From Pyrus communis (lineage: Eukaryota > Streptophyta > Magnoliopsida > Rosales > Rosaceae): a DNA stretch of 64,000 bases. Location of the stretch: positions 1,307,001 through 1,371,000 of the forward strand of contig NC_084809.1 in NCBI RefSeq assembly GCF_963583255.1, in the 5' to 3' direction. The translations under genes were made by a program, and so were the position numbers. Positions 5,265 through 59,001 of this stretch are shown here, piece after piece; positions within the stretch are counted from its first letter, which is position 1, and every line of letters starts with the position of its first letter. The notes beneath the pieces were generated by a model. That model saw only the letters and a program-made list of their open reading frames with translations. It searched no databases and had not been told where the DNA came from.

Positions 5265-5885
5265 CTTAAAGGTGATGTCGTTCTTGCGAGCTTTGAGAGC
5301 AGATGCGAAGATTTTAGGGAGTGGATCAGACTGATAGCCTTTGATGCACCATGGCCAGGCCTCGAGGGTCTTGTAGCAGAGGAAAACGTGGCGATAGTAT
5401 GATAGTGTATCGTCATTAGTGTCTTCATCAGACTCATATGACATAGTCTCATAGTTGTCCCAATTAGTAAGATCATCGGACAAATCCCATTTTACAATAT
5501 CCACTCCAGTTTTGTTCACCTTAATAATTCTATTATCTAGTCCATAAAATTGTGCTTGTACAAGAACCATGTCGCCACCTTTCAAATTGAGCTTCTTGTT
5601 TGAAAGATTTCCCAACCAAAGATAATATTCATGGGAAGCAGTTACGGTGACCTCAATTGGCCAGATACGAAAATTAGTTCGCAGGGTACGATTAACAACA
5701 TAAATGGTTAGAAACCCAGTAGAGTCGGAGTTGTTCGAAGAATAAACGATGCCCAAGGCCAACCCTCCTATATAATCAATACTTGGCGGCACTTTAAATT
5801 TGACAGTTTCATCCTCTCTCGCGACATAGGCGAACCGCGTAGGAATATCATTTCCAGAGAGAAAAATTCCACCAAATGCATTTTT
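5265..5885 (-). CDS. TNL-A exon 5: C-JID / SucFer fusion exon
   Basis: One 621-base exon holding two unrelated domains. The first part (GGIFLSGNDIPTRFAYV, then VPPSIDYIGGLALGIVYSS and YYLWLGNLSNKKL) is the beta-rich post-LRR C-JID region of TNLs. After an acidic linker (YESDEDTNDD) the frame continues without intron or stop into RHVFLCYKTLEAWPW and SDPLPKIFASALKARKND, which matches SucFer exon 1 of the free gene at 58759-59001 and ends at the same splice donor. The first roughly 37 residues of SucFer are replaced by the receptor. The same junction is found in copies B and C, so the fusion is old and not an assembly slip. Confidence 0.92.
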
Positions 5886-9638: not shown

Positions 9639-10209
9639 TGCAGCCTGTAGAAGTGCAGCTTGACTTTCAAATAACCAAAGTCAATCTTTCCCAAGATTCC
9701 CCAGTGTAGGCGGCCTTTTTAAATTTTTTGCATAGGCCAATGATGTCACTGCCGTGTCGATAACGCGTGAGTGCTTTTCCTCCCACAATTTAATTTGTAT
9801 AAATGTTACCATCAAATTAAAAAAATAAAATTGTATAATTGCTTTACGATGCAATTTCCTTTCTTTTGTAGTTTTAAGGGTGGTGCGCAGGTAGCTTCAA
9901 CTGCGGCTGCTGGTGGACGTCATGCCAGCGTTATAAGAATCTTCGGTGCAAAGCAGGTTCCAACTGTTGGAGTCAGTCTAGAGAGTATTAACGGGAAGAG
10001 ACCTCATCTCCAACAACCTATCTTAACAAAAGATGCAGAAAATTAAGCTCCAACAGGCTAAATAAATGACTATCTATCTTTACTTCGTACACAGTAACTA
10101 AATAAATTTAGCCAGGAAGAGACTGTCGTAGCTTACGTCAAAAGGATCAATGTCGAAAAATAAGTAATTTACTTGCATAAAATAAGGATTAATTTAGCTG
10201 CGAAAACAA
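9639..10209. other. intergenic region between TNL-A and ARM pseudogene
   Basis: Holds the presumed promoter of the minus-strand TNL and, on the plus strand, a 9770-10045 open stretch with no match I recognise and no counterpart in block C beyond its first part. The first 250 bases are nearly identical to the 54455-54700 segment upstream of TNL-C, so the two promoters are paralogous. Confidence 0.5.
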
Positions 10210-14501: not shown

Positions 14502-14562
14502 TGGTATCATCACCATCGTCTAACCGACTCCGATCCGGCGCTTCCCTCTTCTAGCAATTTTC

Positions 14563-16632: not shown

Positions 16633-16654
16633 TGATCAAGGCATTACTCATCAG

Positions 16655-31611: not shown

Positions 31612-32229
31612 CTGAAAGGTGATGTCATTCTTGCGAGCTTTGAGAGCAGAAGCAAAGAACTTAGGGAGCGGATCGGACTCAGAGCCTTTGATGCACCACG
31701 GCCAGGCCTCGGGGGTCTTGTAGCAGAGGAAAATGTGGCAAATGTCCAACTGTGTATCGTCATCAGTGTCTTCATCAGACTCATATGGCATAGTCTTATA
31801 GTTGTCCCAATTAGCAAGACCATCATACATATCCCATTTTACCATATCCACTCCTGTTTTGTTCACCTTAATTCTATTATCTCCTCCATAAAATTTTGCT
31901 TTTACAAGAACTATGTCGCCGCCTTTCAGATTGAGCTTCTTGTTTGAAAGATTTCCCAACCAAAGATAATATTCATGGGAAGCAGTTACGGTGGCCTTCA
32001 TTGGCCAGTTGCGAAAATTAGTTCGCTGGGTACAATTAACAACATCAATGCATAGAGACCCAGTTGAGTCGGAGTTGTCTGAAGAATAAACGATGCCCAA
32101 AGCCAACCCTCCTATATAATCAATACTTGGCGGCACTGTAAATTTGACAGTTTTATCCTCTCCCGCGACATAGGCTAACCAGTTAGGAATATCATTTCCG
32201 GAGAGAAAAATTCCACCAAATGCAGTTTT
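31612..32229 (-). CDS. TNL-B C-JID / SucFer fusion exon
   Basis: 618-base exon, open throughout: AFGGIFLSGNDIPNWLAYV, VPPSIDYIGGLALGIVYSS, LWLGNLSNKKLNLKGGD, then the acidic linker YESDEDTDDDTQ and directly CHIFLCYKTPEAWPW with SDPLPKFFASALKARKND. Same junction as copies A and C. Confidence 0.88.
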
Positions 32230-34917: not shown

Positions 34918-34923
34918 GGAGTT

Positions 34924-36534
34924 TTGGAAGATGTGCTTGTGCAGGTGAACCATTTAATTTTTCCGGCTGATTTCTACGTCCTAGACATGGAGGATTCAGC
35001 CCATTCTACATCTTTGCCGATTCTCCTTGGTAGGCCATTCATGAAGACGGCCCGAACGAAGATTGATGTATACAAAGGCACCTTGACAATGGAATTCGAT
35101 GGGGAAGTGATTGATTTTAATATTTCTGAAACTATGAGATATCCCGTTGATGACCATTCTTGTTTTTCCATTGATGTTATCGATTCTTTGGCGCAGGTAT
35201 ACCTTGAAGAATTGAACGAGGACGCCCTGGAAACAACCATCACTAAGGCCATAGAGCGCAAAAATGAAGGATTTGGGCCAATGCAAGGCCACGGCAAGGA
35301 GGAGGAATTCTTTGCAATGGGTTCTAGTGAAGAAATAATTGAGGTTGTGGCAGCCCTTGAGTCATTGCCACAACAATATGGTAAGGTTCCACTCTCACTT
35401 TCAAATTCAGTTTCCACTAAGATGCTACCTTCTGTTGTTCAGGCACTATCGCTTGAACTTAAGCCGTTGCCGGACCATTTGAAGTATGTGTTTTTGGGAA
35501 AAGGCGAAACATTGCCCGTCATCATTTCATCAAATCTCACGGCAATGGAGGAGGAGAAGCTTGTGAGGGTGCTGCGAGAGCACAAAACAGCCATAGGGTG
35601 GACTTTGGCCGACATTAAAGGAATAAGCCCTACCACATGCATGCACCGTATACTTCTTGAGGAGGGGGCTAAACCAACTCGAGAGGCTCAACGCCGTCTC
35701 AACCCTCCGATGATGGAAGTGGTGAAGAAGGAAATAATCAAGCTTTTGGATTGCGGAGTGATCTACCCTATCTCCGATAGCCGTTGGGTCTCTCCAGTTC
35801 AAGTCGTTCCCAAGAAGTCCGGAGTAACTGTTATCAAGAATGATGAGAATGAGCTCGTGCCTACACGCATTCAGACTGGATGGCGAGTATGTATCGATTA
35901 CCGGAAGCTAAATGCCATGACTAGGAAATATCACTTTCCTTTGCCATTCATCGACCAAATGCTCGAAAGGTTAGCCGGTCATGCTTTTTACTGTTTTCTT
36001 GATGGATACTCTGGATATAACCAAATTGTGATAGCCCCGGATGATCAAGAGAAGACCACATTCACATGTCCCTTTGGAACATTTGCTTATCGTCGCATGC
36101 CATTTGGCTTATGCAACGCACCGGCCACTTTCCAAAAGTGTATGGTAAGTATATTTTCCGATTTTGTTGAAAAGATCATTGAGGTTTTCATGGATGATTT
36201 CAGTGTATTTGGGAGTTCATTTGATAATTGCTTGGATAATCTGACCTTAATTTTGAAACGATGTGTTGAAACTAACCTTGTCTTGAATTGGGAGAAATGT
36301 CACTTTATGGTGAAACAAGGTATAGTTTTAGGACATATTGTTTCAGAAAAAGGAATTGAAGTAGATAAATCGAAAATAGACCTTGTACGTCACTTACCCT
36401 CTCCTACTTCGGTTAGAGAGGTACGTTCGTTTCTTGGCCATGCAGGGTTCTATAGGCGTTTTTATCAAGGACTTCTCCAAGATGTCCAACCCTCTTTGCC
36501 GATTGCTTCAAAAAGATGTGCCATTCAAGTTTGA
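34924..36534 (+). CDS. Athila pol, first part (protease end, RT)
   Basis: Begins inside the protease ([18 protein letters not shown]) because upstream sequence is deleted. Reverse transcriptase has [29 protein letters not shown], the [10 protein letters not shown] motif, [11 protein letters not shown] and the FMDDF active site near 36195. A one-base insertion in a T run near 36463 shifts the frame; the natural continuation is the frame of the next entry. Confidence 0.9.
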
Positions 36535-38362
36535 TGAAGAGTGTAATTCGGCATTTAACCAACTCAAGGAGAAGCTAGTCTCAGCCCCCATTATTGTACC
36601 TCCAGATTGGAGCCTTCCGTTCGAGCTCATGTGCGATGCATCCGACTATGCATTAGGAGCTGTTCTAGGACAAAGAAGAGACAAGCGGCCGCATGTCATA
36701 TACTATGCCTCTCGGACTCTCAATGATGCCCAATTGAACTACTCCACGACGGAAAAAGAACTTCTAGCTGTGGTTTTTGCTTTAGATAAATTCCGTTCAT
36801 ATTTAATTGGTACTAAAGTAATCGTTTATTCTGATCATGCAGCTTTGAGGTACTTGATCACGAAAAAGGAAGCAAAGCCGAGGCTTATCCGTTGGATTCT
36901 TCTTCTTCAAGAATTTGATATTGAAATCCGGGATAAGAAAGGAAGCGAGAATGTAGTGGCTGACCATTTAAGCCGAATGATCCACGAGGAGCATGAACAT
37001 GCCGTACCTATCCCTGAAACTTTTCCCGATGAGCAGCTGCTATCCATTGAGGTAAGTGAACCATGGTATGCAGATTTAGTGAATTACTTGGTGGCTAAAC
37101 AAATTCCAAATGAACTAAACAAGCACCAACGTGATAAGCTTAAAAATGATGCACGTTTCTATGTTTGGGATGACCCTTATTTGTGGAAGTATTGCTCAGA
37201 TCAAATTGTACGTAGATGTGTGCATGATTCTGAATTTCACTCAATTCTAAGCTTTTGTCACACATATGCATGTGGTGGTCATTTTGGCACACAACGCACT
37301 GCCCCCAAGGTTCTAGAGTGTGGTTTTTATTGGCCGACTATATTTAGGGATGCTAGAACCTTTTGTATGTCTTGTGATCGTTGCCAACGAATGGGTAACA
37401 TAGGTACCAAGGACCAAATGCCGCAAACCCCTGTCTTTAATGTTGAAATTTTTGATGTTTGGGGCATTGATTTCATGGGCCCTTTCCCTCCATCTTATGG
37501 TTTCACTTATATCTTGCTAGCCGTTGATTATGTTTCTAAATGGGTGGAAGCAAAAGCCACCCGTACTAACGATTCTAAGGTGGTTGCAGATTTCGTGAAA
37601 ACTAACATTTTTGCTAGGTTTGGAATGCCGAGAGTAATCATAAGTGATGGAGGGTCTCACTTTTGCAATCGGACCATTGAGGCGTTGCTAAGAAAGTACC
37701 ATGTCAACCATAAGGTCTCCACACCTTACCATCCTCAAACAAATGGCCAAGCCGAGGTGTCTAACCGAGAAATCAAACAAATTTTGGAGAAGACCGTTGG
37801 ACCAACAAGGAGGGATTGGAGCTTACGTTTAGATGATGCACTGTGGGCATATCGTACGGCATACAAAACACCCATTGGGATGTCACCTTTTCGGCTCGTC
37901 TATGGTAAGCCATGTCATTTGCCCGTAGAGTTAGAGCATAAGGCACATTGGGCCGTGAAGACTTTCAACATGGACATAGATGCAGCGGGAGTTCATAGGA
38001 AGCTCCAATTGAATGAACTTGAGGAGATTCGGAATGAAGCCTATGAGAATGCCCGGATGTACAAAGCCAAGACCAAAGCATTCCATGATAAAATGATTCG
38101 AACCAAGACCTTCACAGTTGGGCAGAAAGTGTTACTTTTCAACTCTCGCCTACGTTTGTTTCCTGGTAAGTTGCGTTCTAAATGGATTGGCCCGTTTGTT
38201 GTTACTAATGTTTTCCCTCATGGTGCAGTGCAAATCAAAAGTTCAAGGACGCAGCAAGAATTCAAAGTGAATGGACATCGATTGAAGCCCTATTACGAGA
38301 TGTTTGAGGAGCATGTCGTGGAGGAGGTACCCCTCCATGCCGTGGAACCTAGTCAAGCTTAA
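36383..38362 (+). CDS. Athila pol, second part (RNase H, integrase)
   Basis: Useful reading starts near 36465. RNase [17 protein letters not shown] and [16 protein letters not shown]. Integrase: zinc finger [11 protein letters not shown] with CMSCDRC, catalytic core [20 protein letters not shown] and [13 protein letters not shown] (D, D, E all present), then the C-terminal KWIGPFVV and GHRLKPYYE segment. No chromodomain. Ends at a stop at 38360-38362. Confidence 0.9.
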
Positions 38363-42378: not shown

Positions 42379-44329
42379 TGATAGGAGCATATTTATGCGA
42401 CTTAAATGGCTTGTTCTCGTACATTTACGTTATGTTTCTTTAGTTATTTTAGTTCTTTATGCTTCTTTTGTGTGTTTTCAGGTTCTAAGGGCAAAGTATG
42501 CAAAAGGATGCCTTTTGAAGCCTTTTGGAGCAAATTAGAGATTGGAATGGATATCATATGCTTGGAGCCAAAAGGATGGACGAAATTGAAGACTTGAAGT
42601 AGGAAAGTTAAATCCTAAAAAGACCTCATGTTTGAGCATCATTGAAAACTCCTACGCATTTTAGAACACAAAAACAACATTCCTAGCAACCTTAGGACAT
42701 TGTCGTGTGTTTCCTTGTGTCTCCCTTCCTTGCCATGCAAGGAAGGGCTTTGTTCCCTATTTTAAATACTTAAACACTACCACTTATCATATCATACATT
42801 CATTTATCACTTATCATAATCATTCACTTACCACTTATCATATCATACATTCATTTATCACTTATCATAATCATTCACTTATCACTTAACATATCATACA
42901 CTTATCACTTATCACTCATAAACATCCACCTACTTCACCTACAACATCCACCTACTTCACCTACAACATCCACCTACTTCACCTACAAATGACATAGCCA
43001 TATGTTCCCTCCACTACTCCTATAAATACCCTTGCATTCATTCATTCATGATCATCTCATTCACAACACAACACCCCTCAAACACTTCCATTATTCCCTA
43101 GCCGTGAGTCCCCCTTCCACCATTCCTCATCCATTTCCATAATTCCCCAAACCTCACCTTAGACCTTGTGCTACAACAACGAGGAAGATAAGAGGGCCTA
43201 AACGTTCATACAATTCAAGTTTGAGTTGTTGGAATGTTTAGGTGTTTCTTTGATTTCAAAGTTTAAATTCAATTCTCTTTGTTTTGTACGTATGAGGAAT
43301 GGAAGAGAAGAGTGCCTAAACGTTCATACAATTCAAGTTTGAGTTGTTGGAATGTTTAGGTGTTTCTTTGATTTCAAAGTTATGAGGAACTAAACCCCCT
43401 TTAGCTAGGGGGTGATTCGAAACTATGTTTATATTTGCAATATGAATTGATTAACTTTCGTTGGAATTTCATAAGTTGTGGATTCAATTTGTTTAACCGT
43501 TTAATTGATAACTTATTTATGAATGTTTATTAAGAATGCGCGCTTAATTTTCATGCATAAATATGACGCTAGAATATAAGTGAATTTCACCTAATCGTTA
43601 TGAACTTATATTCACAAGTAGTGGAGGTTGCTTATAAACAATCGCGTTAAACGAATTCTTGGCATAAGTTTCATGCGTATTCCATAGTAACGAATGTCTC
43701 GTCAACACTTATAATTTTCATTGAACTTAATGATCTTTGTTGAATGTCTCTATCATGCGTATTCCATAGTTAGGGACTTTGATTAAGAATAATTTGGTTG
43801 TAATGCGTATTCCATTCAATCCAACGAATTTAGGGAAATCTGAAAGTTAATTTAAGCGGACCTAATTAACTTGGAGCATTGAGTTTCATAATTTATCGAA
43901 AGACCAACTGAGAATCAATCTTGTATGCAAGTATAACAAGTGTGGAGAAGAACCCCTTAGCTAGCATTCATCCATATAAATCCATCACATTCATATTTAC
44001 ATTCTGTTTTAATTGCAATTTGTTCATTTAGTTTAATTTCGTCAAAACCTAAATCCCCCTTTACTTTAAATGTCAAATTAGTTAGAAATCATTTTAGTTT
44101 GTGTTTTTAAAGTATTTTGAGTCTTTTGGTTTGTCTTAGTGTTTTAACGTTTAGTTTCGCATTCTTTGAGTCTAGTATAGTGTTTTATATTGTGTTTTTA
44201 CGTTTTTAAGTCAGTTTCCAAGAGATTAACAATCCCTCCTAATCCCCGGTCCAGAACGATCCCTACTTATACTTATACTACAATTGTCAAAAAGAGGGTT
44301 TAATTTGTGTGCGTTTAATTCTCGCATCA
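42379..44329 (+). repeat. Athila 3' LTR
   Basis: 1,951 bases from TGATAGGAGC to CTCGCATCA, preceded by the purine tract GCTAAGTGTGGGGG. Includes short tandem arrays: CACTTATCATATCATACATTC-type units (42780-42905), ATCCACCTACTTCACCTACA three times (42927-42986), and a CAATTCAAGTTTGAGTTGTT direct repeat (43211 and 43330). Confidence 0.9.
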
Positions 44330-45226: not shown

Positions 45227-45310
45227 CTATAAGTAGAAATTCCAGATTACGAGAGCCATACTAAATGCCTTATTCATAATGACAGTAGGCAAAACCAAAA
45301 ACATACAAAC

Positions 45311-45783
45311 CTCCAATGTCGTTCTATAACCTCTCCCTTCCCAATGTGCTTATCAAGCAATTCCGGCACATCATCAGGAGGGACGGAGCGATACCTGCAA
45401 TTAATAATACATAATATTCAAACTCCTTCATCAATCCCAATACGATAAATTTTAAATTGTTACGATCCGGATATTACCAATGGCATGTCAAGCTTTCATA
45501 TGAATCTGGGATGTAGATCCAGAGTCTTCCAGCATACTTATGGCCTTCAGTGTGAGAGCACGTAGTAACAAATACCTGATCTGTCAATCCTCGTAGCTCT
45601 ACCTCCTCTTTGAACTTATCAATGAGAACATGTGCACTATCACGATTCCATTCATTTCGACTCATAAGTACGCATACAAATACATGGGGGCCAGTCAAGG
45701 GCTCTTGCACTCCGGAAGACCATGGTTTGTTATTCACAAAGACATCATCAACAAAGTTGTCCACATCAGACTTTTTCAAGCCT
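45311..45783 (-). CDS. TNL-C SucFer exons 3-4
   Basis: Exon 3 45478-45783 and exon 4 45311-45394. Metal region VFVCVLMSRNEWNRD: first Cys kept, second ligand is Asn; HTEGH kept. Exon 4 ends in TGGAG, phase 2. The breakpoint to copy B is at about 45280. Confidence 0.85.
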
Positions 45784-47169
45784 CTTTGATCAAGAAACAA
45801 CAACAACCTCAGAATCACTATAAAGGATTTACAGGCAAGAAATTAGTCTTAAACTGAGCCATTAATTCAATTTCTAGAACTAATTTTAGAAGCTAACACA
45901 TATCTAATTATCTATTTAGTTTAGTAAATTCAGCATAATCTCGTAATCAAAAGTGAGGTGGAAACAGAAATTACCTCATTCTAAACTAGGAAAATAAATT
46001 GCACTGCTCATGTTGGTTATGGAATGGGCCATCGATTATGAATTAATTACGGTTTGCCATTATGTGCCTTAGTGTGGGTCGTGCTTAATAGCTGGGTTGG
46101 GTTGCTGCATTTGGGCCCAGGTGTAGCTTTCACGCGTTTTGGGATGGGCTTCGCCGTCAAATGACTCTTTTGCCCCCTTCAGTCCTAATCCAACGGCCAC
46201 CATTTGGGGCTTTTGTGTTCTGCAATTCGGTTGGGGGGTTAGGTTGCTTTTCATCTCATCAAGGGGATCGTGCAAAGAGGCAGAGGGTGACAACGAGTTT
46301 AGGGTTTGCATAGTGAGAGACAAGAGGGTTGATGGGAAGGGTAGGAGCTAGAGAGAGGGGGTGGGGGTGGGGGTGGGGGTGGGGGTGGGGGTGGGTTATG
46401 TCCGCTGACGTTGGTTGCAGAGAGAGAGAGAGAGAGATGGGGAAAAATATGGAGGTGGGGTTGAGGGGAACGGGTACAGAGAAAAAGAGTGAGGGAGTAA
46501 AGGACATAGGAGCTAGAAAGGCCACTACATGATTCTCTTAAGGTTTTTTCTCAACTAGGTTCTTTCGTTTCAATATTTGGTTGAAATAGATTAAAAAAAA
46601 ATAAAAAATCTCAACGTTTTCCTCGGAGTCTTTATTATCTCTTACCAATTTGAGATTTGCGCATGTGTGTTTGCTAATGCTTTGTTTCTTCGTTTTTACA
46701 GGAAATGGAATTGCACTCTTCCTTATCTCTCAAATTCTTTCATTTGGGGTCTAAGGTGATGCCTTTTTGCCTAAAATATCATTTTGTTAAATAGCTTATG
46801 ATATTTTGATTCTCAGCACATTTTGCATAGTTCAAAAAGCAAAATCTCTCTCTCTCTCTCTCTCTCCCCCTCTCGATCTCTCTCTCTCTTGCTTTTTGTG
46901 GCTAAAGATCAATTCTTTTGTGTCATAAATTTGCTTTTGTTACATGGGGTTCTGTATATCTTTTGAATAATCAAAAAGCTTGAATCTAGGTTTCTTTAAA
47001 TTTCTTTGAATTCTACTTTGTGATTTTGGTTTAGAAATGTGTAGAATTACATTTAAGAGGATCATAAGGAAGAGAAGCACAGATCAGTTCTCAGGCATTC
47101 CATACGTAATGACTATGCTTAACTGCCTACTCTCCACTTGCTATGTTGCTTTGCTTCTCACTCCTTCAA

Positions 47170-47205
<36 letters not shown>

Positions 47206-50200
47206 CCCCGTTCTCTCCTCTCTGATTTGTATTGCCTAATTAGTTATTTACATTTGTTTATTTATCTCTGTAAAGCTTTCATGCTTGGATTTTAAATGTA
47301 TGATTCAATTAGAAACCTTTATAATGTTGATTTTATAGAACATTCAACAGATATATATTCAACATTAGGTAGCTCTGGCAAAATCATATAGACTAAGATT
47401 TGGTAACATATGGAGGTGAGAGTGAATCTGCTTTGCTTGCCATGATATAGGCTTGCAATGATGGCTTCCTCTTTGTAGTACTACATTCTACTCTTACATG
47501 TTAACATCAGAAAGCAGACTAAGATAGATCCAAACCCAATCTTATTAATTAAAATAAGGGGAGTTTTAACGAAAAGCCCGCATTACTGTTCACTTTAACG
47601 AAAAACCATATTTTTACACTAAAAAATCAAACCTGGTACTATTCATTTTACCCTTTATTTTGTCCTTATTATTAAAACTAAAAGTTTTCAAGACCTTTTC
47701 ATTAGTTTTCCTTAAAATAAATGGAAAGAAAATGATTTATGCATACCTTTGTCTATTTGTCACTTGATTTTGGTTTAGGTTGACCATAGCTAAAACATCC
47801 AAGACTCACCCAACACCTAATTTGATGAAGACCCTATCCTTTTTAGCCTTTAGGTGTGTGTTTGCTAGCTAGCTGGGTGGTGGGTGAGTCTTGGATGTCT
47901 TGATTATCTTGGATGTTTTGGTTCTGTCTTCTTCGACTCTTATATCTTCCCTTTTTCTGAATTTTCTTTATTTCTCATCCTTTAAATTTTATATTTTAAA
48001 AAAAAAATTTTTTTTTTTTTTTTTGGGTGATGCAGATAGATGAACATGTTCAAAGGGAAATCATGAACCACAGATCACTGCATCCAAATATCGTTTGATT
48101 CAAAGAGTTCAGTGATCATAAACTATTTTCATTTTGTATTTTAAGATGAATTTGGCAAGTTCTGTTTGAATTTTGTATAAGTATCTGCTGAGGGTGGGTG
48201 GATAAAGACAGAACACGCTAAATTTGGCCTCTGGTGTGCTTAAACTGGTACGGGGGATGGCTGAACTTTGAGCCTGGGATGCAGTAGGACTAAGAGAAAT
48301 GCCTTACCCACCGGGGCGATCCACCACTTGCAGAATTGTTGTTAAAATAACTCTGCTAAAAATATGAGCTATTCTTCCTGCACTTTGTTTTTACTATGAA
48401 GTGGAAATAGTCTTTAGAGGCTTATTTGTGATAATTGATAAAGAGGTTTGTGTTTAATGTTGAGGAGCTATTCTTCCTGCACTTTGTTTTTACTGTGAAG
48501 TGGAAATAGTCTTTAGAGTGGCTTATTTGTCAAATTGATAAAGAGGTTTGTGTTTAATGTTGAGGAAAATTAGAGTACACAACTCACACAAGTATTGGAG
48601 AGACAAAACAAGTAAACAAATTACTTGTATTACGCTCACAAAATTTTACAACACAACAACTATCAAGGACACAACTTAGAAGCTATGACACCCTCTCTTT
48701 CTAAAGACACTCTCTAGATCACTCGGACTCTTCACAAGACTACTCACTTACAAGGCTTCTCACTCTCTTACTTAGCTCTCTCTTGATTTGCTCTCGTACT
48801 TCGTTACTTGGTTGATTACAACATTACATATTTATAGGCAATGGTTGCCGACTTTAAAGATTGGTAGAACATTCTAGTGCATTTATCATGCACTGCACCG
48901 ACTCTCACACTGCCCACCGACTTGGCATGTCATCTAACTAGGTTTCTAGTTCTTTCTACAAAGATACTTTAGATTTGATATTTCTAGGCCATCCAACCAA
49001 CTTTGCATGCTAGACAATTCTAGTAAAATCTCATGCATGAATCTTCTAGAACAATCTCATGCATGTTTGAACTAACATAATTTAGTTTCTTTGTACTGAC
49101 TGATCTTAAAGGGTTGGTGTTGATCTTGAACATTTAAGACTTGAGAGTAGTACGGTGGCTTTTTTGATGGTTCTACTCACACCACCTCATCTAGCCATTG
49201 TGATGGAGTACACGGCTGGGTGAGAACTCTTCGAGAGAATATGCAGTGCTGGCAGATTTAGTGAGGATGCGATAAAGTAGTTTCAAATGCAGAGAAAATT
49301 TCATTGGAAATATTTTGAGTCGAGTCTCAAATATGGGATCTCTGAATGTCCCCTGAAATGGAACCCATCTCGATTTTCGTTTAGTTTCAGATAGGGAAAG
49401 TTAGGTCTGAAGCATTTTTACATACACAGTCGGTCATAATATAACTAAAACTTACATACTTTTTCGATTTAATTGTTGTTTTGCATCAGGCTAGGTTTTT
49501 CTTCCAGCAGTTGATATCAAGAGTTAGTTGATGCCATTTGATGGTATGTAATGTGACACTTTTCTGCTAATGCATCGAATACTGTTATTTCTTTCTCTTT
49601 TGATATTGGAAGTGTTGGTTGTAGTAAGGAAATAATTCGTTTCAATAGTATACGACTTAGTTTTAATAGTATATGACTCGGTTTTTTAATAGCACTCAGG
49701 TGGGAAATGGAATGTGGGTCGGCTCATGTTTTAGTCTCTCCGTCGTAAGCAATTTTACATGGCATTCTTCAATGTAGCTATAGGTAAGACAACACTCTCA
49801 GTATTCCATAATCAAACCACCATTTGAACTTTTTTCATCCACCAAGTGAAAGCTTTTGTGTGCCATCCTGAATAGTTACAAGTTATTGCTTCAGATTTTG
49901 TTCTCTTGCTTACCTCTCAAGCTTGCGTAATATACTTATTCTTATTACTGTTGTATTGTTAAGAAATACTCAACTGCGGTTTCAGTTCATCGTTATGAAT
50001 CGGATTAAAATTAATCACACACCGGTTAATTATCTAAATCCTATAAATTCGGATTAAAATTAAGGCAACTAAAGAACAAAAACCTCAAGAAATCAATGCG
50101 AATTTACCTGTATTTGATCATTTGTGGGAAAATCAATACATCACCGTCGGAAAACTCAGTTCCTTCGCGTCCTTCAATTACTGTCAGCAACGTCTATCAA

Positions 50201-53200
50201 AAACCAAGAAAAAGTGAGTAACGGAGTCAACTCAGCTCAACACCAGAATTCAGTAGCTCTAGGAAATAAGAAACGGTAAGAAAAAGCAATCAGAAACGCA
50301 GAAGAATTGAGCTGGAAAACGAACCTTAACGTTGATGTCGTTCTTGCGAGCTTTGAGAGTAGATGCGAAGAACTTAGGGAGTGGATCGGAGTCAAAGCCT
50401 TCAATGCGCCATGGCCAAGCCTCGGGGGTCTTGTAGCAGAGGAAAACGTGGCGATTGCTCAACTGTGTATCGTCATTTGTTTCTTCATCAGACTCATATG
50501 ACATAGTAGTGTCTTCATCAGACTCATATGGCATAGTCGCATAGGTGTTCCAATTAGTACCACCATCAAACAAATCCCATTTTACAATATCCACTCCCAT
50601 TTTCTTCACCTTAATTCTATTATCTCGTCCATAAAATTCTGCTTTTACAAGAACCATGTCGCCACCTTTAAGATTGAGCTTCTTGTTTGAAAGATTTCCC
50701 AACCAAAGATAATATTCATGGGAAGCAATTACGGTGGTGGCCTCCATTGACCTGATGCGAAAAATAGTTCGTTGGGTACGATTAACAACATCAATGCATA
50801 GAGACCCGGTAGAGTCGGAGTTGTCCGAAGAATAAACGATGCCCAAAGCCAACCCTCCTATATAATCAATACTTGGTGGCACTTCAAATTTGACAGTTTC
50901 ATCCTCTCTCGCGACATAGGCTAACCGGTGAGGAATATCATTTCCAGAGAGAAAAATTCCACCAAATGCATTTTTCTGTACCATGGGGTGCAAAGTTAGT
51001 ATAAGCAACAATACAAAAAGCAGAGAGAGAGAGAGAGAGAGTACCATACCGTTTGGAGGTTCTCCTTAAAAGTATCAGTGAGACTGGTACACCCTTCCAT
51101 ATGAATTGAATCCATGTAGTCCATTGAGCTCTCCAAGTTTGGAATATCTTTGAGTTTGCGGCAGTCTTTCAGTTCCAATTTCCCCATTTTCGACATCTCT
51201 GAAAAGTCGGACATTATTTCCAGTGCAGTGCAGTAATTTGCATGCAATTCAAGCAAACTCGTCGGCAAATCTGGGATTGCCTGAAGGTTTATGCAATGAT
51301 ATAGAAATAAAAACCGAAGCTGAGAAAGGCCACTGAGAATGGGTAGCCTATTAAAACCATTCCCACCTAGATTTAAAAGTTTTAAAGAATATAGACTCCC
51401 AATTATTTCGAGAACGGCACCATCTGTTATATTGCAGTCGCGGAATTCTAATACCTTAATCATCTTCAGTTGTGCTAAAAAATGGTAACCCCCACACAAA
51501 CCCTTACAGCCACTGAGGAACAATGCCTCGAGATGTGGGAGTTTTGAAAAGTCTGGTAATTCAGTCAGGTTATGGCAGTCTCCAAGAATGAGATACTTCA
51601 ACTTCTTAGGCAACTGTTATTCAAAAAGAGAAAACAATAATAAAAATCCAAATAAATAAAAGAGAGAATGCATGACGATGACTGATGTTGATATTTACAA
51701 GGATATTGCTAATTATATCGTACCAGCTCCGAATCCTCCCAAACTCGTACCATCTTGCTGTACCTCAGTTCCATATAAATTAGGTTTCGTTGATCAAAAT
51801 CTACTGGTATGGCTTCAAGAGGAAATCCATTCCAATACAACGATCTTAACTCCTTGGAAAGATGTTTGTAGCTTCCAGTCAGCTTTACATTTTTCAGCTC
51901 GAGAAATTTCAGACGCCACATCTTCTTAAACGCTTCCGTTGTGAAGCTTTGCTCGTCATCAGAATGTTCTGGCAAAAATAAGGTTAGTCCTTCAACTGCT
52001 TCTGTTCCCTGTTAGAGATTAGAAAAAAACAAGAAAAGGATAATATTCACACGAAGCAGAGCCATGAATTGGATGAATGAACTACTAGAAACGTTGGGCA
52101 TACAACATAATTATGTATTTTCTCTTTCAATTTACAGTGGATGAAAGCCTTTTCTTTTCTTCCTTTTCTTCAAATATACTATGTACGGCAATACATTATA
52201 TATATATATATATGCAGATATGCGTATATACTTCTCTTTATTTACATTTACTTAACATAACATCTTTTTATTGCAAAAGTACTTACAGATTCGTTCCTTA
52301 ACACGCTTTTTGCATCTTCGCTATGCCACAATCGACTACATTTTCCCAGTTTCATAGGAGATTTTGCCCGCACAATTTCTCTTCCCATATCTCGAATCAA
52401 ATCATGCATCCTCAATTCTTTGTATTCACCAAAATATAAGAGACATCGATCGCAGAGTGTGGCAATTTCTGCTTCTACAGAAAAACGACTGCAACCATCC
52501 AATATTGCTGTGACAAAACTTTTATTCTTTCCAATAAAGAAACAAGATATGTCAAGGAACACACCTTTCACATGATCATCACGTAAACCATCGTAGCTTA
52601 ATTTAAGCGTTTCATGAATTGTTCGATCTGGAATATTTCTCAATTTATCCAATGTACTTTTCCATATGCTTTTAGTCTTTTTCGTAGCCAACAAACGGCC
52701 AACAACTTCAAGAGCTAGGGGCAATCCTCCACAATAATCAACAACATCTCTTGCGAGCTCAATATATTCTTCGTCGGGACAAGGATTTCCAAAGGCATGC
52801 CAACTAAGGAGCTCAAAAGCTTCGTTATCAGTCATTTCTTGTGCTTTATATCTTTTATCCACCTTTTGTATATTCAGCACTTGTTCATCTCTTGTCGTTA
52901 TAATAATCCTACTCCCTAGACCAAACGTGTCATGTGTTATCGCCAATTTATCTAATTGGTCCAGGTCATCTATGTCATCAACCACGACAAGTACCTTCAT
53001 GCTTCCAAGTCTTTTCTCTATCTCCTCGGTTCCTTCAGCAACACTGCTTACCTTAATGTCAGGCCGTTTCAAGATATCTCGAAGAAGTTGTTCTTGCAGA
53101 CTAACCATATTTTTCTTGTTACTCCTCACCTCTTCAAGGTAACATTGACTACTAAAACTATGCTGATACTTGCTAAAAATGGCTCTGGCAAGTGTTGTTT

Positions 53201-54454
53201 TACCTATACCGCCTATACCCCAAATTCCAATTATTTGAACATCAGGTGAACCTCTAACGTCTAAGTATTTAATGTTGAATTCTTGCACGCGAAAAGCTAT
53301 TCCAACTGAGTGCTTGGCTTCTTTTAAGTCTGTGGGTTTCAATAGTCCCTTGATCTCCCCAATAATTTTCTCAATAAACACTCCTTCGTGCCTACAAATA
53401 GAAATTCCAAATTACGAGAGCCATACTAAATGACTTATTCATCATGATATGTATTTACATATTGAAACATGTTTGAATAAATTGTGATTTACTGAGCTCA
53501 ATTCAACCATGTATTTAATCTTCGATTATAATGTGAATAGATTACATCATTGGTCATTGGACTATTACACAATTGTAGCTTTCGGTTATATAATTAAGAA
53601 TCCATTACGATTGGTATTTTAATTTGATAAACAGTGGAGCATTTGTTCTTCACACACCCATAAAAAACAAAGCCTGTACCCTGCGTTTCACTTCCTTAAT
53701 TTTGATGGAAATTCATATGCAAATGCTCTACCTTTTATAAAATACATATACCAATTATAATAAAATTTTATGTAGCGACCAAAATTACAGTTCTGTCATA
53801 ATTCAGGGATCAACGATCCAATTTTTCTTCTAACATATAAAATCAGAAACAATGCCTTAGTTATAATATCTTAATTTTGGTTGATTAGTGAAATATGGTA
53901 TATGAAATTTGAAATAAAAAAAAAGTATACCCGTCGGCCGTGGTTTTGAGGTTCCAGCCGCCCAAATCTGCCGAAGCCGTAAGATCCTCTCTCCACTGCT
54001 TGACCTCATTTGGATCTTCATTCCTTTTGTGCTTCTGAAATGCTTTCGAAAAACTACCATTCTGTTTCCTGACTTGAGAAGGGTCAACGTCGTAGAATAT
54101 TGGACACACTATTTTCCCCTCTTGATCTTTTAGGCACCTCATGATCTTCGACAGCTCCCTCAGGCACCATCGGGACTCCGCATACCTCTTGGAGAAGATG
54201 ATGACGGCAATTCTCGACCCTTCGATTTCTTGGTCAAGTTCACTCTGTATGTTTTCCCCCCTTGTGAGCTGGTTGTCTATAAACGTCTTAATTCCGGCAT
54301 TGCGTAACGCAATGAAAAGGTGGTCTGTGAAGGTAGTGCGCGTGTCGTCGCCTCTAAAGCTCAGGAACACCTCGTACTTCCAGCGGTTTGAGCACTGCGA
54401 GGAAGACGAAGAGGCGGCAGCAGCGGCTCCATGGGCGGAGCTGCTGGTATCCAT
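45311..54454 (-). CDS. TNL copy C fused to SucFer; open through eight exons
   Basis: The best-preserved receptor. Exons: TIR 53931-54454, NB-ARC 52287-53391, LRR 51724-52008 and 51050-51613, fusion 50325-50975, SucFer 50108-50193, 45478-45783 and 45311-45394. All are open and in phase, giving about 1,201 codons. Order: TIR about 26-170, P-loop near 235, MHD near 500, LRR about 545-825, C-JID about 827-965, SucFer from about 975. The usual SucFer exon 5 is missing: 30 bases past exon 4 the sequence switches to the NB-proximal intron of copy B. If exon 4 is not spliced the protein ends about 12 residues further on; if spliced to 45226 it would run in frame into NB-ARC of copy B. Role: intracellular immune receptor with an integrated domain; ligand unknown. 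Confidence 0.85.
46358..46395. repeat. (GGGGGT)n run
   Basis: Six G-tracts of four to five G separated by T on the plus strand, expanded compared with block A (2340-2355). Capable in principle of a G-quadruplex. Lies in the leader-like block of the SnRK2 remnant. Confidence 0.9.
47558..47711. mobile_element. 154-base Mutator-like MITE
   Basis: GGGGAGTTTTAACGAAAAGC to TTTTCATTAGTTTTCC, flanked by a 9-base duplication TTAAAATAA (47549-47557 and 47712-47720). Absent from block A near 3455. A MITE type I recognise as abundant in apple. Confidence 0.85.
48036..49543 (+). pseudogene. SnRK2 remnant, exons 2-4 (block C)
   Basis: Exon 2 from 48036 after TGATGCAG (IDEHVQREIMNHRSL, then NIV-stop-FKE), exon 3 about 49160-49275 (IVMEYTAG, stop, ELFERICSAGRFSEDA), exon 4 49490-49543 (ARFFFQQLISRVS). 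Best preserved of the three. Same two stops as blocks A and B. A 575-base solo LTR lies between exons 2 and 3. Confidence 0.8.
48558..49132 (-). mobile_element. 575-base solo LTR (copia-like)
   Basis: TG...CA flanked by TTTAA at 48553-48557 and 49133-49137; the empty site reads TTTAAGACTTG in blocks A and B. Minus-strand orientation is suggested by CTATAAATATG about 48825-48836. A roughly 100-base tandem duplication to its left (48365-48565) includes the first bases of the LTR. Confidence 0.87.
50108..50193 (-). CDS. TNL-C SucFer exon 2
   Basis: 86 bases, TLLTVIEGREGTEFSDGDV segment, intact AG/GT and phase. Confidence 0.87.
50325..50975 (-). CDS. TNL-C C-JID / SucFer fusion exon
   Basis: 651 bases open. 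KNAFGGIFLSGNDIPHRL opens the C-JID; YYLWLGNLSNKKLNLKGGD follows. The acidic linker is expanded by a 30-base duplication (50482-50541; YESDEDT and YESDEET). It runs directly into NRHVFLCYKTPEAWPWR and DPLPKFFASTLKARKNDI. Ends at the same donor as SucFer exon 1. Confidence 0.93.
51050..52008 (-). CDS. TNL-C LRR exons
   Basis: Exon 51724-52008 (GTEAVEGLTLFLPEHSDD to RVWEDSEL) and exon 51050-51613 (LPKKLKYLILGDCHNL to KENLQT). Variation among copies is concentrated at predicted solvent-exposed LRR positions, for example VLEFRDCNITD versus HLSDCNITD, as expected for a recognition surface; this is a by-eye impression. Confidence 0.9.
52287..53391 (-). CDS. TNL-C exon 2: NB-ARC domain
   Basis: 1,105 bases without stops. 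Motifs: GIGGIGKTTLARAIF, FSSQCYLEEVR, VLVVVDDIDDLDQL, GSRIIITTRDEQVL, CGGLPLALEVVGRL, VFLDISCFFIG, LRMHDLIRDMGREIV. All switch motifs look functional, unlike copies A and B. Confidence 0.94.
53931..54454 (-). CDS. TNL-C exon 1: TIR domain
   Basis: ATG at 54454. Ala/Ser-rich leader, then WKYEVFLSFRGDDTR, LFIALRNAGIKTFIDNQLTR, SRWCLRELSKIMRC with the conserved Glu, and FYDVDPSQVRKQ. Ends in phase 2 at a GT donor. Confidence 0.93.
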
Positions 54455-54639: not shown

Positions 54640-54919
54640 TAAAAACTGTATAACCGCTTTACGATGCAATTTCCTTTCCTTTGTATAATCTGCCGCCCAA
54701 TTTTGACCAGGTGACGACCTTATTGTATTTTAAAGTTGGTGCGCAGGTAGGTTCAACTGCGGCTGCAGGTAGGTTTAACTAAATGATTGTCTTTACTTTG
54801 TGAATAGAAACTAACTAAATTTAGCTAGGAGGAGACATTTGTAGCTTACGTCAAAAGGATCAATGTCGTAAAATAAGTAATTGACTTGCATAATAAAGGA
54901 TCAATTTAGCTGCGAAAGC
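54640..54919. other. intergenic, TNL-C promoter side
   Basis: Shared with 9800-10209 in part (GGTGCGCAGGTAG, CGTCAAAAGGATCAATGTCG). Nothing coding recognised. Confidence 0.5.
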
Positions 54920-55733
54920 AAGGCGATGGTCGAGCTCACTATGGCAGCTTTTTTGATCCTATCATCTTGCAAGGGAAACAAGCTACCAATTGCACCACAC
55001 GGAGGCATCCAACTAATAGTTGAATTTCTCGATCAAGATTATGCAGAAGGCATCGGTGTGCAAGCCAGACTCGACAGCATAGCCACACTACACAACCTCT
55101 CGACCTGCCATCAGACTACGTCTCTTCGGGCGTAGTGTTTTCGTTGTTACAAATAATCCACGGCTTGGAAACATCAAGCCAACTGGACGACATTGTTTCT
55201 TCATCGAAGACTCTGCTCAAGGAAACTGCAGGTACGTGCGACACAATCTGGGGCCTGGTTGAGACCATTGAAGAGGAATCGATGAAATGCAAGGAGCACG
55301 CTGCGAGTATCTTCCTGCTTATGTGCCAGAGCTGCAGAGAGAAGTACGGAGGACTAATACTGTATGAAGAGCAATGCCCAGACTGCTTCAGCTGAGCGTG
55401 GATGGGACGTGGAGGGCTAAAGCCACGGCACAGGAGTTGCTGTTTCTCCTGAAAGACTGTTCAAATTATGGTTCGAGAAACAAGAAGAGCAATGCCCAGA
55501 CTGCTTCAGCTGAGCGTGGATGGGACGTGGAGGGCTAAAGCCACGGCACAGGAGTTGCTGTTTCTCCTGAAAGACTGTTCAAATTATGGTTCGAGAAACA
55601 AGCAGTGGAGGAATAAGGATGTAGAGCAGATTATGCAGGACATTGATACCCGGGGGAGGGGGGGGGGGGGGGGAGGAGTACAACGGTACTGAGGCTGGTG
55701 GAGGAGATGCTTGCAAAGATCAGCAGTGGACGA
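54920..55733 (+). pseudogene. ARM-repeat (U-box-type) pseudogene, block C
   Basis: VELTMAAFLILSSCKGNK, GGIQLIVEFLDQDYAEGI, VQARLDSIATLHNLSTCHQT, then a frameshift to VFSLLQIIHGLETSSQ, then LLKETAGTCDTIWGLVETI, CKEHAASIFLLMCQSCREK and, after another shift, LSVDGTWRAKATAQELLFLL. Matches the C-terminal armadillo repeats of plant U-box 4/45-like proteins; N-terminal U-box and early repeats are absent. Contains a 118-base tandem duplication (55366-55601) and a G run (55656-55671). Head-to-head with TNL-C and tail-to-tail with the SucFer gene. Confidence 0.8.
55366..55601. repeat. 118-base tandem duplication
   Basis: Two identical units starting GAAGAGCAATGCCCAG inside the ARM pseudogene; absent from block A. 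Confidence 0.9.
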
Positions 55734-56211: not shown

Positions 56212-59001
56212 TCAGCCTGACCTTCTATAAAAGCTATAGGCCATGGCCACTGTTGCCACTGCTCCAACCACGGCAGCAGCTGCAAGAACATCGCTTTGCT
56301 CCCAGTTCACAATCAAGCTTGACAGCTTCCCCAAGGCATCCTTCCTGGCACACGACTCTCTGGTTTCTTTCAGCTTCTTTTTCTCACTTCCACCATTCTG
56401 CTCCAAACTTACTTCTTTGCAGCATGTAAATCCATTACTATTAGCACCTTGGCAACAGCCTGAAAAGTTCTCATTTTTCTGAATCTGATTGCCGTTTTCT
56501 TGTGGCTTCTCCTGGATTTTCTTACTTTCTCCTCCATTTGAAAGCTTCGGGTCATTAATTTTTTCAGCTTCATCAGAAGATACTCCCATTTGGCCCCTGT
56601 AAGGAATGAAATTGAATTTCGTGTTCAGTTATTTAAAGTTCAACTCTAAGTTTCAACAATAGCTATTGAGTAAGAACAGGTATGATAAAGCTCAATAAAC
56701 AACTAGCATATGGGCACACACACAGTGTGTGAGAATTTTTTTTTTTTTTTTTGTTTTTGAAATATAAGGAGAGAGGAAGAGAGTGACAGAGAATATGGGA
56801 GTGGGAAGTTTTTTTTTTTTTTTTTTTTTTTTTTAATTAGAGATATGTTATGATTACATATAGGTGAGGCTTTGAAAAAAAAAACAGCAAAATTTGGTTG
56901 CGTGAATTTACATTTCTGCCTCATATTTCTTATTCATGTTCTGTTTTAATTAGAGGGTTAAACTGGTAATTTCATAGGATTTTGGTTGACAATGAGTGTT
57001 TTATTAATTAGTAGAGATTTGACAACAATTAATCAGAAGAACATTACAAATCAGAAACATATACAGGGTAATGCCATTATATCCAATTCGCTAGATCTAT
57101 TTCGCTTTCTCCATCTCTGTAAAGTGTCTACTTGACCCCATACCCCGTTCCCCAAACCACCTCTGGTTTGGTTTATCAACAAAAAAAGGTAGTTTGATTT
57201 GGTTCACACTAGTTTGAATTGGTTCCTCGATGTTAATGCAACTCTATGTCAATTATCTATCATACAACACTAGAAATAATCAGCAATTGAAAAATATGAC
57301 AGACACTTCAGTTCCAGTGAAATTTTCATCAGAAGGGGGTAAGCAAAACCAAAAACACACAAACCTCCAAAGTCGTTCGATGATCTCTCCCTTCCCAATA
57401 TGCTGATCAAGCAATTCTGGCACATCATCAGGAGTGACATAGCCATACCTGCAATAATACATAATATTCACATTCCTTCATCAATCCCAATACAATAAAT
57501 TTTAAATTGTTATGATCCAGATATTACCAATGGCCTGTTATGCTTCCATCTGAACCTGGGCTGTAGATAATCAAGTTTCCAGCATACTTGTGGCCTCCAA
57601 TGTGAGAGCAAGCAGTAACAAATACCTGATTTGTCAATCCTCGCAGCTCAGCCTCATCTTTGAACTTATCAATGAGAACAGGTCCACAAACACCACATCT
57701 TTTATCTCGACTACCATGTGCACATACAAATACATGGGAGCCAGTCAACGCCTCTTGCACTCCGGAAGCCCATGGTTTGTCATTCACAAGGACATCATCA
57801 ACAAAGCTGTCCACATCCGACTCTTTCAAGCCCCTTTGATCGAGAAACAAAAACAACCTCAGAATCACAAAAAGAAATTTACAGTAAACAATAACCTAAC
57901 ACTCTTCAATTCCTTGTAAGGCAAGGAATTAGTCATAAACTGAGCCATTAAATTCAATTCCTCGAACTAATTTCAGAAGCTAACACATATCTAATTATCT
58001 ATTTAATTCAGTAAATTTAGCACAATCTTGTAATCAAAAGAGAAGTCGAAACAGAAATAAAACACTAAATGCGGTCGTAACTTCCATTCAATCAATTTCC
58101 ATGAAAATCACGAGAACTTTTTTAGGTCCAAGAACATGGCCCGGTACACCAAATGTCATAATACAATTGGTTGAAAACTTGAAAGTTTACAACCAATTGT
58201 ATTATTACTCTTAGAGTACAGGCCGTGTTCCGGCACATTGAGAAATCTCTTGAAAATCACTATAACGTCAGCTCAGATTAAACAAGGAAAATTTCAAGGT
58301 ATCAACACCAAAACTAGTCCAAAACACACTAAATTAGCTCGATTTGAGACTTCATACATCGAAATTGAAAAATCATAAACTCTGTCTCTAGCTAGCAATC
58401 ATCGAAATCTACAAGTCAAATAATGCAAATCTGACGAATCAAAACACCACTCACTAGTTAATTATCTAAATCCTATAAATTCCGATTAAAGTTAAAGCAA
58501 CTACAATACAAAGACCTCAAGAAATCAACGTGAATTTACCTGTATTTGATCATTTGTGGGAAAATCAATACATCGCCATCGGAAAACTCAGTTCCTTCGC
58601 GTCCTTCAATTACTGTCAGCAACGTCTATCACAAACCAAGAAACAAAGTGAGTAACGGAGTCAACTCATCTCAACACCAGAACTCAGTAGCTCCAGGGAA
58701 TAAGAAACGGTAAGAAAAAGCGATCAGAAACGCCGACGAATTGAGCTGCAAAACGAACCTTAACGGCGATGTCGTTCTTGCGAGCTTTGAGAGCGGAGGC
58801 GAAGAGCTTAGGTAGTGGATCGGACTCAGAGCCTTCGACGCGCGACGGCCAGGCCTCGGGGGTCTTGTAGCAGAGGAAGACGTGGCGGTCGTAGGCGTTG
58901 ACCGTACCGGCAAGTTTTTCCTTGAACATCTCCGATCTCTTGAAGCCGAACTTCTCGTCTTCGGCGGCGGTGACGGCGGCAGAGAGGTCGTCGGAGGCCA
59001 T
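56212..59001 (-). CDS. free-standing sucrase/ferredoxin-like protein (SucFer)
   Basis: Complete five-exon gene: 58759-59001, 58540-58625, 57528-57833, 57365-57448, 56212-56596, encoding about 367 residues, normal for the family. The start is the ATG at 59001 (MASDDLSAAVTAAEDEKFGF); an ATG further upstream gives a low-complexity extension and was not used. Thioredoxin-like fold family related to yeast Apd1 and Aim32, which bind a [2Fe-2S] cluster with two Cys and two His. Here VCAHGSRDKRC gives C-X8-C (same spacing as Apd1), followed by GVCGP and by HIGGH (H-X3-H). The C-terminus SDVLAAAAVVGAVATVAMA is a probable tail anchor. The plant role is not established. Adjacent to a D6PK-type kinase, as I recall for the Arabidopsis relatives. 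Confidence 0.92.
56597..57364 (-). other. SucFer intron 4 with AT-rich insertion
   Basis: About 300 bases (roughly 56703-57005) with T runs at 56736-56751 and 56812-56834 are absent from the matching intron of the block A copy (13211-13625). No ends could be fixed. Confidence 0.55.
58111..58252. mobile_element. fold-back MITE, copy 3
   Basis: In SucFer intron 2. Best preserved of the family: GGCCCGGTACACCAAATGTC and ATAATACAATTGGTTG on the left, CAACCAATTGTATTATTAC and GGCCGTGTTCCGGCAC on the right. It is absent from introns of the fused copies. Confidence 0.72.

Follow-up and report, generated by a model that had tools for sequence, protein, structure and literature searches.

Does an array of TIR-NB-ARC-LRR (TNL) genes in pear encode receptors that carry a sucrase/ferredoxin-like (SucFer) domain within the same protein, and what would such a domain do there? 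We addressed this question in a 64,000-nt stretch of Pyrus communis (the window; GCF_963583255.1, NC_084809.1, 1,307,001-1,371,000), in which all coordinates below are positions. At least five fused TNL-SucFer copies with the same junction lie at this locus, three of them (A, B, and C) in the window and two (D and E) just outside, and the array is adjoined by an intact parent SucFer gene (59001-56212). The window copies and the parent are all on the minus strand.

Of the three window copies, C alone retains TIR, NB-ARC, LRR, and SucFer exons 1b-4 in full. Its gene model (54454-45311) has eight exons bounded by GT-AG throughout and encodes 1201 codons free of stops. Exon 1 (53931..54454) provides the start codon and, in an open frame ending at a GT donor, the Pfam TIR domain, with a WCLREL motif at residue 96 which, by motif, we take to be the NADase glutamate region. 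Exon 2 (52287..53391), open and matched by Pfam, encodes the NB-ARC domain, including GIGGIGKTTLA and a second motif, presumably the P-loop and the MHD; both fall within the open TIR, NB-ARC, and LRR frame. LRRs occupy exons 3 (51724..52008) and 4 (51050..51613), both open, with Pfam run on the spliced protein. The following fusion exon consists of a post-LRR part (50451..50975), presumed to be C-JID-like from its position and FGGIFLSGNDIP, which had no Pfam match when searched alone, and of SucFer exon 1b (50325..50450), which begins at HVFLCYKTPEAWP. SucFer exons 2 (50108..50193), 3 (45478..45783), and 4 (45311..45394) are in phase and open; exon 3 reads RNEWNRDSAH in place of RDKRCGVCGP. 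SucFer exon 5 is absent, so the C-terminus of copy C is uncertain. In the spliced protein, Pfam recovered TIR (7.5e-52), NB-ARC (1.1e-36), and, at residues 999-1201, Suc_Fer-like (PF06999; 1.5e-22), the last scoring 81 bits, above the curated cut-off of 34.9. This profile match supports the domain assignment of the initial annotation, as do the matching phase and canonical splice sites of copy C SucFer exons 2-4. The span given there (50108-54454) ended at SucFer exon 2, with exons 3 and 4 lying 4.3 kb beyond.

The fusion exons of copies A (5265..5885), B (31612..32229), and C (50325..50975) were found exactly where they had been placed, and in each the TNL post-LRR reading frame continues into SucFer exon 1 within one stop-free exon, the SucFer part starting as H(V/I)FLCYKT(P/L)EAWPW and followed by a GT donor. 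The junction had been noted in all three copies and holds in all of them, but the TNL part is intact only in copy C (one of three). Copy A, with SucFer exons 2-5 at 5137-5052, 1711-1400, 1316-1233, and 900-492, retains exon 5 but has a frameshifted NB exon (about 7800). Copy B, with SucFer exons 2-4 at 31492-31407, 28611-28306, and 28222-28139, has a truncated exon 5 (27807 down to about 27561) and lacks the TIR and P-loop, its TNL 5′ part being missing beyond 33574. Copy D, beyond the window, likewise extends intact to SucFer exon 4, in 1184 codons without a stop; a single open frame covers its TIR, NB-ARC, and LRR together with the P-loop and MHD, and its SucFer exon 5 has an early stop. The SucFer frame is open in all four copies holding exons 1b-4 (A-D), where indels are in-frame only, and SucFer's own N-terminus is absent from all five fused copies. 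Chance or a misread frame is ruled out by the open frames of copies C and D, the Pfam matches, and recurrence across Malus and Pyrus. Copy C is confirmed, as a predicted gene model, to be a TIR-NB-ARC-LRR gene with an in-frame Suc_Fer-like domain.

All 32 database matches came from Malus or Pyrus. PF06999 was carried by 28 of these, and 17 of the 32 combined TIR, NB-ARC, and Suc_Fer-like. In a tree built from 22 of the 32 fused matches (leaving out P0011, P0013, P0014, P0017, P0022, P0028, P0029, P0031, P0032, and P0033) and 17 of the 120 listed stand-alone matches (888 found), 25 fused rows and four Malus models fell on one side of a branch with 100/100 support. One fused group spans both genera, and by this tree the fusion predates the Malus/Pyrus split. 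The P. x bretschneideri protein P0029 shares 97% identity with copy C across 1104 residues. It matches copy C through SucFer exon 2 and, judging from the protein, falls out of frame in SucFer exon 3; this relative appears to carry a frameshift within the SucFer domain.

The parent SucFer has the same exon structure as the fused copies, side by side with them. Its exon 1 (58759..59001) starts with 117 bases (59001-58885) that occur once only in the 94 kb examined; exons 2 (58540..58625) and 4 (57365..57448) are those of an intact gene, exon 3 (57528..57833) has CAHGSRDKRC and HIGGH intact, and exon 5 (56212..56596) encodes a Cys-rich stretch, predicted to be disordered in the close homologue P0034, followed by a C-terminal hydrophobic tail. 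SucFer (PF06999) belongs with the Apd1/Aim32-like, thioredoxin-like ferredoxins and ends in a hydrophobic tail. Two features, position on C7 and the T shared in KTPEAW, point to the C7 copy as the probable donor of the fusion. Derivation of the fused domain from an already motif-less paralogue was not supported: among the best-scoring candidates of the genome search, all four stand-alone loci (the C7 parent, C11, C14, and C8) carry RCGVCG.

Comparison with these genes revealed a finding beyond the initial annotation, the loss of the cofactor site in the fused domain. In Aim32 the cluster is bound through CX8C and HX3H, and function is lost in mutants (PMC8482512); of 120 listed stand-alone homologues (888 found), 111 keep all four ligands. 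Among 28 readable fused rows, 27 lack the second cysteine and the one that has it is a chimeric model (rows without letters at this site, P0001 and P0029-P0033, were set aside). All fused copies holding exon 3 (A-D) have lost the CGVCG part of the motif; the first cysteine is kept in B, C, and D and lost in A, and HX3H is present in all four, so that the full CX8C and HX3H ligand set of Aim32/Apd1-type [2Fe-2S] proteins is wanting. Nine of the ten motif codons are changed in all four fused copies examined, and changes as clustered as these arose in 0 of 20000 shuffles. Given the CGVCG loss, normal ferredoxin function is not expected of the domain, nor is normal binding of a [2Fe-2S] cluster. 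The predicted structure of a fused-type Malus protein (P0046, not copy C) matches 1f37, 1m2a, and 5abr, although this model leans on stand-alone sequences, which make up 27 of its 35 alignment rows; the other structure alignment comprised 39 rows.

Substitution rates differ between the fused domain and its stand-alone relatives. Omega between stand-alone homeologues was 0.10, and 0.09 where they are compared with the C-terminal half; among fused copies it was 0.37 for the N-terminal half and 1.48 for the C-terminal half (bootstrap 0.90-2.79, with 6.8% of bootstraps at or below 1), and pairwise tests of the C-terminal half among A-D gave p below 0.05 in one of six. These estimates indicate a clear rate shift of the fused C-terminal half relative to stand-alone SucFer, although diversifying selection would fit such values and, with omega near or above 1, relaxed constraint would fit them too. 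Between copy C and other TNL copies, omega was 1.28-3.66 in the LRR exons and 0.33-0.48 in the TIR; exon 4 exceeded 1 against four other copies, two of these comparisons giving a Fisher p below 0.05.

Taken together, our best reading, to which we give a probability of about 0.55, is that of an NLR carrying an integrated, cofactor-dead decoy and descending from an ancestral TNL-SucFer fusion. In an ancestor of pear and apple, a tandem duplication would have fused a TNL's last exon with exon 1 of a neighbouring SucFer, and the product would be translated as a single TIR-NB-ARC-LRR-postLRR-SucFer protein. Replacement of CGVCG within the [2Fe-2S] site probably preceded the spread of the known copies, and the fused array would then have multiplied. 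The SucFer domain, presumably with its fold kept, would then serve as an integrated decoy: a pathogen effector acting on a thioredoxin-like ferredoxin may bind or modify it and so release the receptor, whose TIR domain would signal cell death. The domain shows one property expected of a decoy, being derived from a host gene (the adjoining parent) and altered relative to it (the replaced motif). A more specific version, in which a metal-free copy from one ancestral fusion with its Fe-S site replaced watches over the redox protein while its C-terminal half diversifies like an LRR, is tentative and falls somewhat short of even odds.

Alternatively, the SucFer tail could be a frozen accident of tandem duplication, tolerated, unused, and decaying, with sensing through the LRR alone. 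The bootstrap of the C-terminal half spans 1, P0029 is out of frame in exon 3, P0031-P0033 are truncated models, the TNL part is broken in copies A and B, and a stop-codon simulation for the fused domain, a weak test, gave P = 0.10, all of which would suit decay. We nevertheless consider it rather unlikely, as the domain frames of A-D have stayed open with in-frame indels only, the N-terminal half is constrained, models bearing SucFer are found repeatedly in Malus and Pyrus, and the C-terminal half of A-lineage domains is 95-96% identical to Malus versus 99% for stand-alone pairs.

Improbable in our view is that the TNL ends past the post-LRR domain and the SucFer remnant is separate or dead, joined to it by annotation. 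Intron 2 does measure 3-4 kb, P0031-P0033 end in SucFer exon 1b or 2, and the Malus model P0055 begins inside the post-LRR part; yet the junction lies inside one stop-free exon, P0029 follows the copy C protein across it through SucFer exon 2, and the SucFer part lacks both an N-terminus of its own and an early start codon, which makes an independent downstream gene unlikely at the DNA level. There is similarly little chance that the useful part is the tail, with SucFer exon 5 anchoring the receptor on the membrane and the thioredoxin-like part a mere spacer. A hydrophobic C-terminal segment closes stand-alone SucFer, copy A retains exon 5, and the tail segment WEQxDVL occurs in 17 of the 32 matches, at the very protein end in 15. 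However, the segment is absent from the other 15 matches and the tail from B, C, and D, and an anchor leaves the clustered replacement of ligand motifs unexplained.

Integrated-decoy NLRs include RRS1 with WRKY, Pik-1 and RGA5 with HMA, Pi-ta with thioredoxin, and TNLs with LIM (CHS3) or BRX (RLM3). As in these systems, the putative decoy described here is a host-protein domain fused in frame, in this case beside its parent, and evolving at a rate that differs from the parent's. Unlike them, it is a Suc_Fer-like thioredoxin-like ferredoxin whose cofactor motif was probably replaced before the known copies spread, with some copies still carrying the parent's hydrophobic tail. SucFer is not known among described integrated domains; no published description was found among the papers listed, and a Suc_Fer-like domain is not named in the main text of the integrated-domain papers searched for it. 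The fused domain resembles Aim32/Apd1-type [2Fe-2S] ferredoxins (PF06999) in profile, exon structure, conserved N-terminal half, and, in some copies, the tail, and departs from them in the missing second cysteine of CX8C (27 of 28 readable rows), a partly degraded HX3H, and its location inside an NLR. In the passage of Sarris et al. 2016 (PMC4759884) on Thioredoxin as an NLR integrated domain, Malvaceae, Poaceae, and Vitaceae are listed, not Rosaceae; a predicted thioredoxin-like fold within an NLR would be common to both, with SucFer being a different family. Among the papers listed in a search for known resistance loci, PMC11374964 names a scab locus, qF17, at the start of its abstract.

We infer that SucFer, or the pathway to which it belongs, may be an effector target, as had been proposed; this gains plausibility from the missing cofactor site and from the C-terminal half evolving at LRR-like rates. 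We know of no effector for a SucFer decoy, and of none that targets the Aim32/Apd1-like ferredoxin family. NLR integrated domains point to pathogen targets, and this fusion names Aim32/Apd1-like ferredoxins as a candidate in two fruit-tree genera; a cofactor-stripped bait, if that is what the domain is, would reveal them as an effector target. Since parent and fused copies adjoin and share their exon structure, the steps of fusion, cofactor-site loss, and expansion can be read and tested singly, and the system allows one to ask cleanly whether a decoy has to give up the activity of its parent.

The minus strand of the window carries a protein kinase gene (63961-61701), an intact Suc_Fer-like gene (SucFer), and then TNL (TIR-NB-ARC-LRR) receptor genes with final exons that run on into SucFer sequence. 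The intact parent gene (59001-56212, minus strand) has five exons encoding 367 amino acids and matches Pfam PF06999 at 1.4e-48. Its N-terminal coding stretch (59001-58885) occurs only once in the 94 kb examined, and each of the five remaining copies of exon 1b, the part of SucFer exon 1 kept in the fusion exon, follows the post-LRR part of a TNL. The initial annotation had described a shared junction in fused copies A, B, and C, and its position is indeed identical in these and in two further copies, D and E, immediately left of the window.

Copy C illustrates the predicted gene structure, with eight minus-strand exons (54454-53931, 53391-52287, 52008-51724, 51613-51050, 50975-50325, 50193-50108, 45783-45478, and 45394-45311), GT-AG at canonical sites throughout, and a stop-free spliced model of 1201 codons. 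Pfam identified TIR, NB-ARC, LRR-type repeats, and Suc_Fer-like (residues 999-1201) in this single open frame, which bears out the earlier proposal of an NLR with an integrated SucFer domain (NLR-ID). The suggested domain search of the fusion exon alone gave no Pfam match; from its position, we take the post-LRR part to be C-JID-like. Copy C also carries P-loop GIGGIGKTTLA, MHD, and WCLREL motifs. SucFer exon 5 is absent, and past exon 4 the sequence becomes an NB-ARC fragment (about 45282-44328, minus strand). Read-through of intron 4 would add a short tail, then a stop. Judged by eye, splicing to an AG near 45236 would instead keep the exon 4 phase and give a TNL-SucFer-NB chimera up to a frameshift.

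The other copies are preserved to different degrees. Copy D (G000:C7:1285270-1292346, minus strand, outside the window) is a second complete TNL-SucFer gene to SucFer exon 4, with the same eight-exon layout, canonical sites, and 1184 stop-free codons to the end of that exon; its exon 5 has an early stop. Copy A retains SucFer exons 1b-5 and the hydrophobic tail, with a frameshift near 7800 in its NB exon, and copy B retains exons 1b-4 plus part of exon 5, which is truncated, with TIR and P-loop absent. SucFer exons 3-4 were looked for in copy E and not found. Upstream of TNL A lies a stand-alone-type remnant of SucFer exons 3-5 with RCGVCG intact (14097-12830, minus strand), and in a shorter piece of exon 3 (25606-25486) this motif is changed. 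Between copies A and B are ORFs of a Copia-type retrotransposon (gag, integrase, RVT_2; 14524-19039, plus strand), and a second retrotransposon (RVT_1, RNase H, integrase) occupies 34906-38359 (plus strand). Near the latter, an inverted repeat pair (33842-34643 and 43500-44301) of at least 802 bases is 99.3% identical, one arm lying just past the end of the copy B TNL and the other ending near the NB-ARC fragment below copy C.

The fusion extends beyond this locus. A search of the fused region against 5.8 billion proteins, covering NLR-length proteins and only candidates sharing short words, yielded 32 matches among 325 candidates (27 Malus, 5 Pyrus). PF06999 was found in 28 of these, a call already present on the database models, and TIR, NB-ARC, and Suc_Fer-like occurred together in 17. 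Among the 32, the highest identity in the searched region (90% across 60% of it) was that of Pyrus x bretschneideri P0029, which is 97% identical to copy C across 1104 residues. In another P. x bretschneideri model, P0005 (LOC103956653 isoform X2), a fused SucFer is joined to a kinase like that at 63961-61701, probably a read-through gene model.

In a 45-row tree, 25 fused rows and four Malus models annotated without a TNL share one side of a 100/100 branch, and a chimeric model, P0009, is the only fused-labelled row outside this group. Six changes of fused/stand-alone label were counted, at least five of them forced, because of P0009 and the four Malus models. The closest grouping of copy A is with M. 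sylvestris and M. domestica rows (100/100), and that of copy C is with a Pyrus hybrid (100/98); copy B falls with M. domestica at 86/89, below the support threshold of the tool. Since the window is from Pyrus, these groupings suggest that the fused lineages are older than the Malus/Pyrus split.

Gene order suggests that the fusion arose by tandem duplication. On a separate contig (C11), a duplicate SucFer has as its neighbor an oppositely oriented ARM-repeat gene (L015 4759-5565, minus strand), and SucFer is the sole match of the copy C protein in 6.5 kb at this locus. On the pear contig studied here, the ARM gene is present as truncated pieces, next to TNL C (window 54909-55487) as well as above TNL A (10197-10366, with 11827 to about 12370), and in both places the matches break off at one shared position, 5501 of L015. 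From a starting order of SucFer, ARM remnant, and TNL, a tandem duplication whose breakpoints fell within SucFer exon 1 and the TNL last exon would create exactly such a fused gene with an intact SucFer upstream.

The fused domain has lost its cofactor site and may have kept its fold. Modeled with AlphaFold, stand-alone P0034 (39 rows, mean pLDDT 70.7) and fused-type P0046 (35 rows, 65.7), a Malus protein used in place of copy C, share the same helix/strand order except for the absent N-terminus, and both match PDB thioredoxin-like [2Fe-2S] ferredoxins 1f37, 1m2a, and 5abr, although 27 of the 35 P0046 rows are stand-alone and its model may thus borrow the stand-alone fold. Yeast Aim32 binds its cluster through CX8C and HX3H, and function is lost in mutants (PMC8482512; for Apd1, see also PMC11126956). 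The parent SucFer has CAHGSRDKRC and HIGGH, and all four ligands are present in 111 of 120 stand-alone homologues listed from 888 found. The nine exceptions are all Malus models, seven with another residue and one with a gap at the second cysteine, and the ninth, P0062, with an altered histidine only. Among the 32 matches and copy C, the second cysteine is retained in a single row (P0009) of 28 readable, the first cysteine in 23/30, the first histidine in 24/30 (the six others include P0033, probably misplaced there), and the second histidine in 25/29. Parent RDKRCGVCGP corresponds to REEWNCDSAR (A), RNEWNRYRAC (B), RNEWNRDSAH (C), and REEWHHDSAR (D): nine of ten motif codons are altered in all four copies, out of 16 such codons among 196, a clustering matched by 0 of 20000 shuffles. 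Being common to A-D, this change may be one event and is alone no proof of repeated selection.

Divergence was uneven along the domain. Among A-D, omega was 0.37 in the N-terminal half (bootstrap 0.19-0.78) and 1.48 in the C-terminal half (0.90-2.79; 6.8% of bootstraps ≤1), with one of six C-terminal pairwise tests at p < 0.05 (A-B, 0.043); across the whole domain it was 0.80, versus 0.10 between two stand-alone homeologues. Exon-wise comparisons of copy C with other TNL copies within 94 kb gave 0.33-0.48 for TIR, 0.39-0.80 for NB, 0.45-1.45 for the fusion exon, and 1.28-3.66 for LRR exons (p < 0.05 in 2/8 comparisons), suggesting that the SucFer C-terminal half behaves like the LRRs. Relaxed constraint is a possible alternative source of these rates; if private substitutions are placed at random, none of the four frames is interrupted with P = 0.10, a weak test. 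C-terminal-half identity was 95-96% between the A lineage and three Malus rows, 72-87% between B, C, or D and the rows compared (the 72% comes from copy C and Pyrus P0003, a model that departs from it in exon 4), and 99% in two stand-alone pairs.

Some copies may yield a receptor with a partial domain, or a domain without a receptor, as indicated by several database models and by the long intron 2 (3-4 kb) of fused copies. P0029 tracks copy C through SucFer exon 2 and, judged from its protein, is then out of frame in exon 3, and the models P0031, P0032, and P0033 extend no further than SucFer exon 1b or 2. Malus domestica P0055 (LOC108174127 isoform X2; 407 residues) begins partway along the post-LRR part and reads over the junction to SucFer, possibly as a short isoform without the TNL. 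By eye, sequence within intron 2 (2129-2533 and 46072-46537, minus strand; no Pfam match for the former) resembles the start of Malus models P0002 and P0009, so the fused SucFer exons may possess an alternative start.

As in the initial annotation, which did not know of SucFer among described integrated domains, we met no Suc_Fer-like integrated domain in NLRs among the matches listed in the literature searched, including apple, pear, Malus, and effector topics, and "ferredoxin" was absent from the available main text of PMC4759884, PMC5067614, PMC9528084, PMC12787737, and PMC4851768. According to PMC4759884, apple has 93 NLR-IDs, and its supplement may list PF06999. Judged from sequence, TNL-SucFer is a real NLR-ID, found among our matches only in Malus and Pyrus, with its cofactor site lost, and a decoy function would be the best-supported explanation of its fused SucFer domain.
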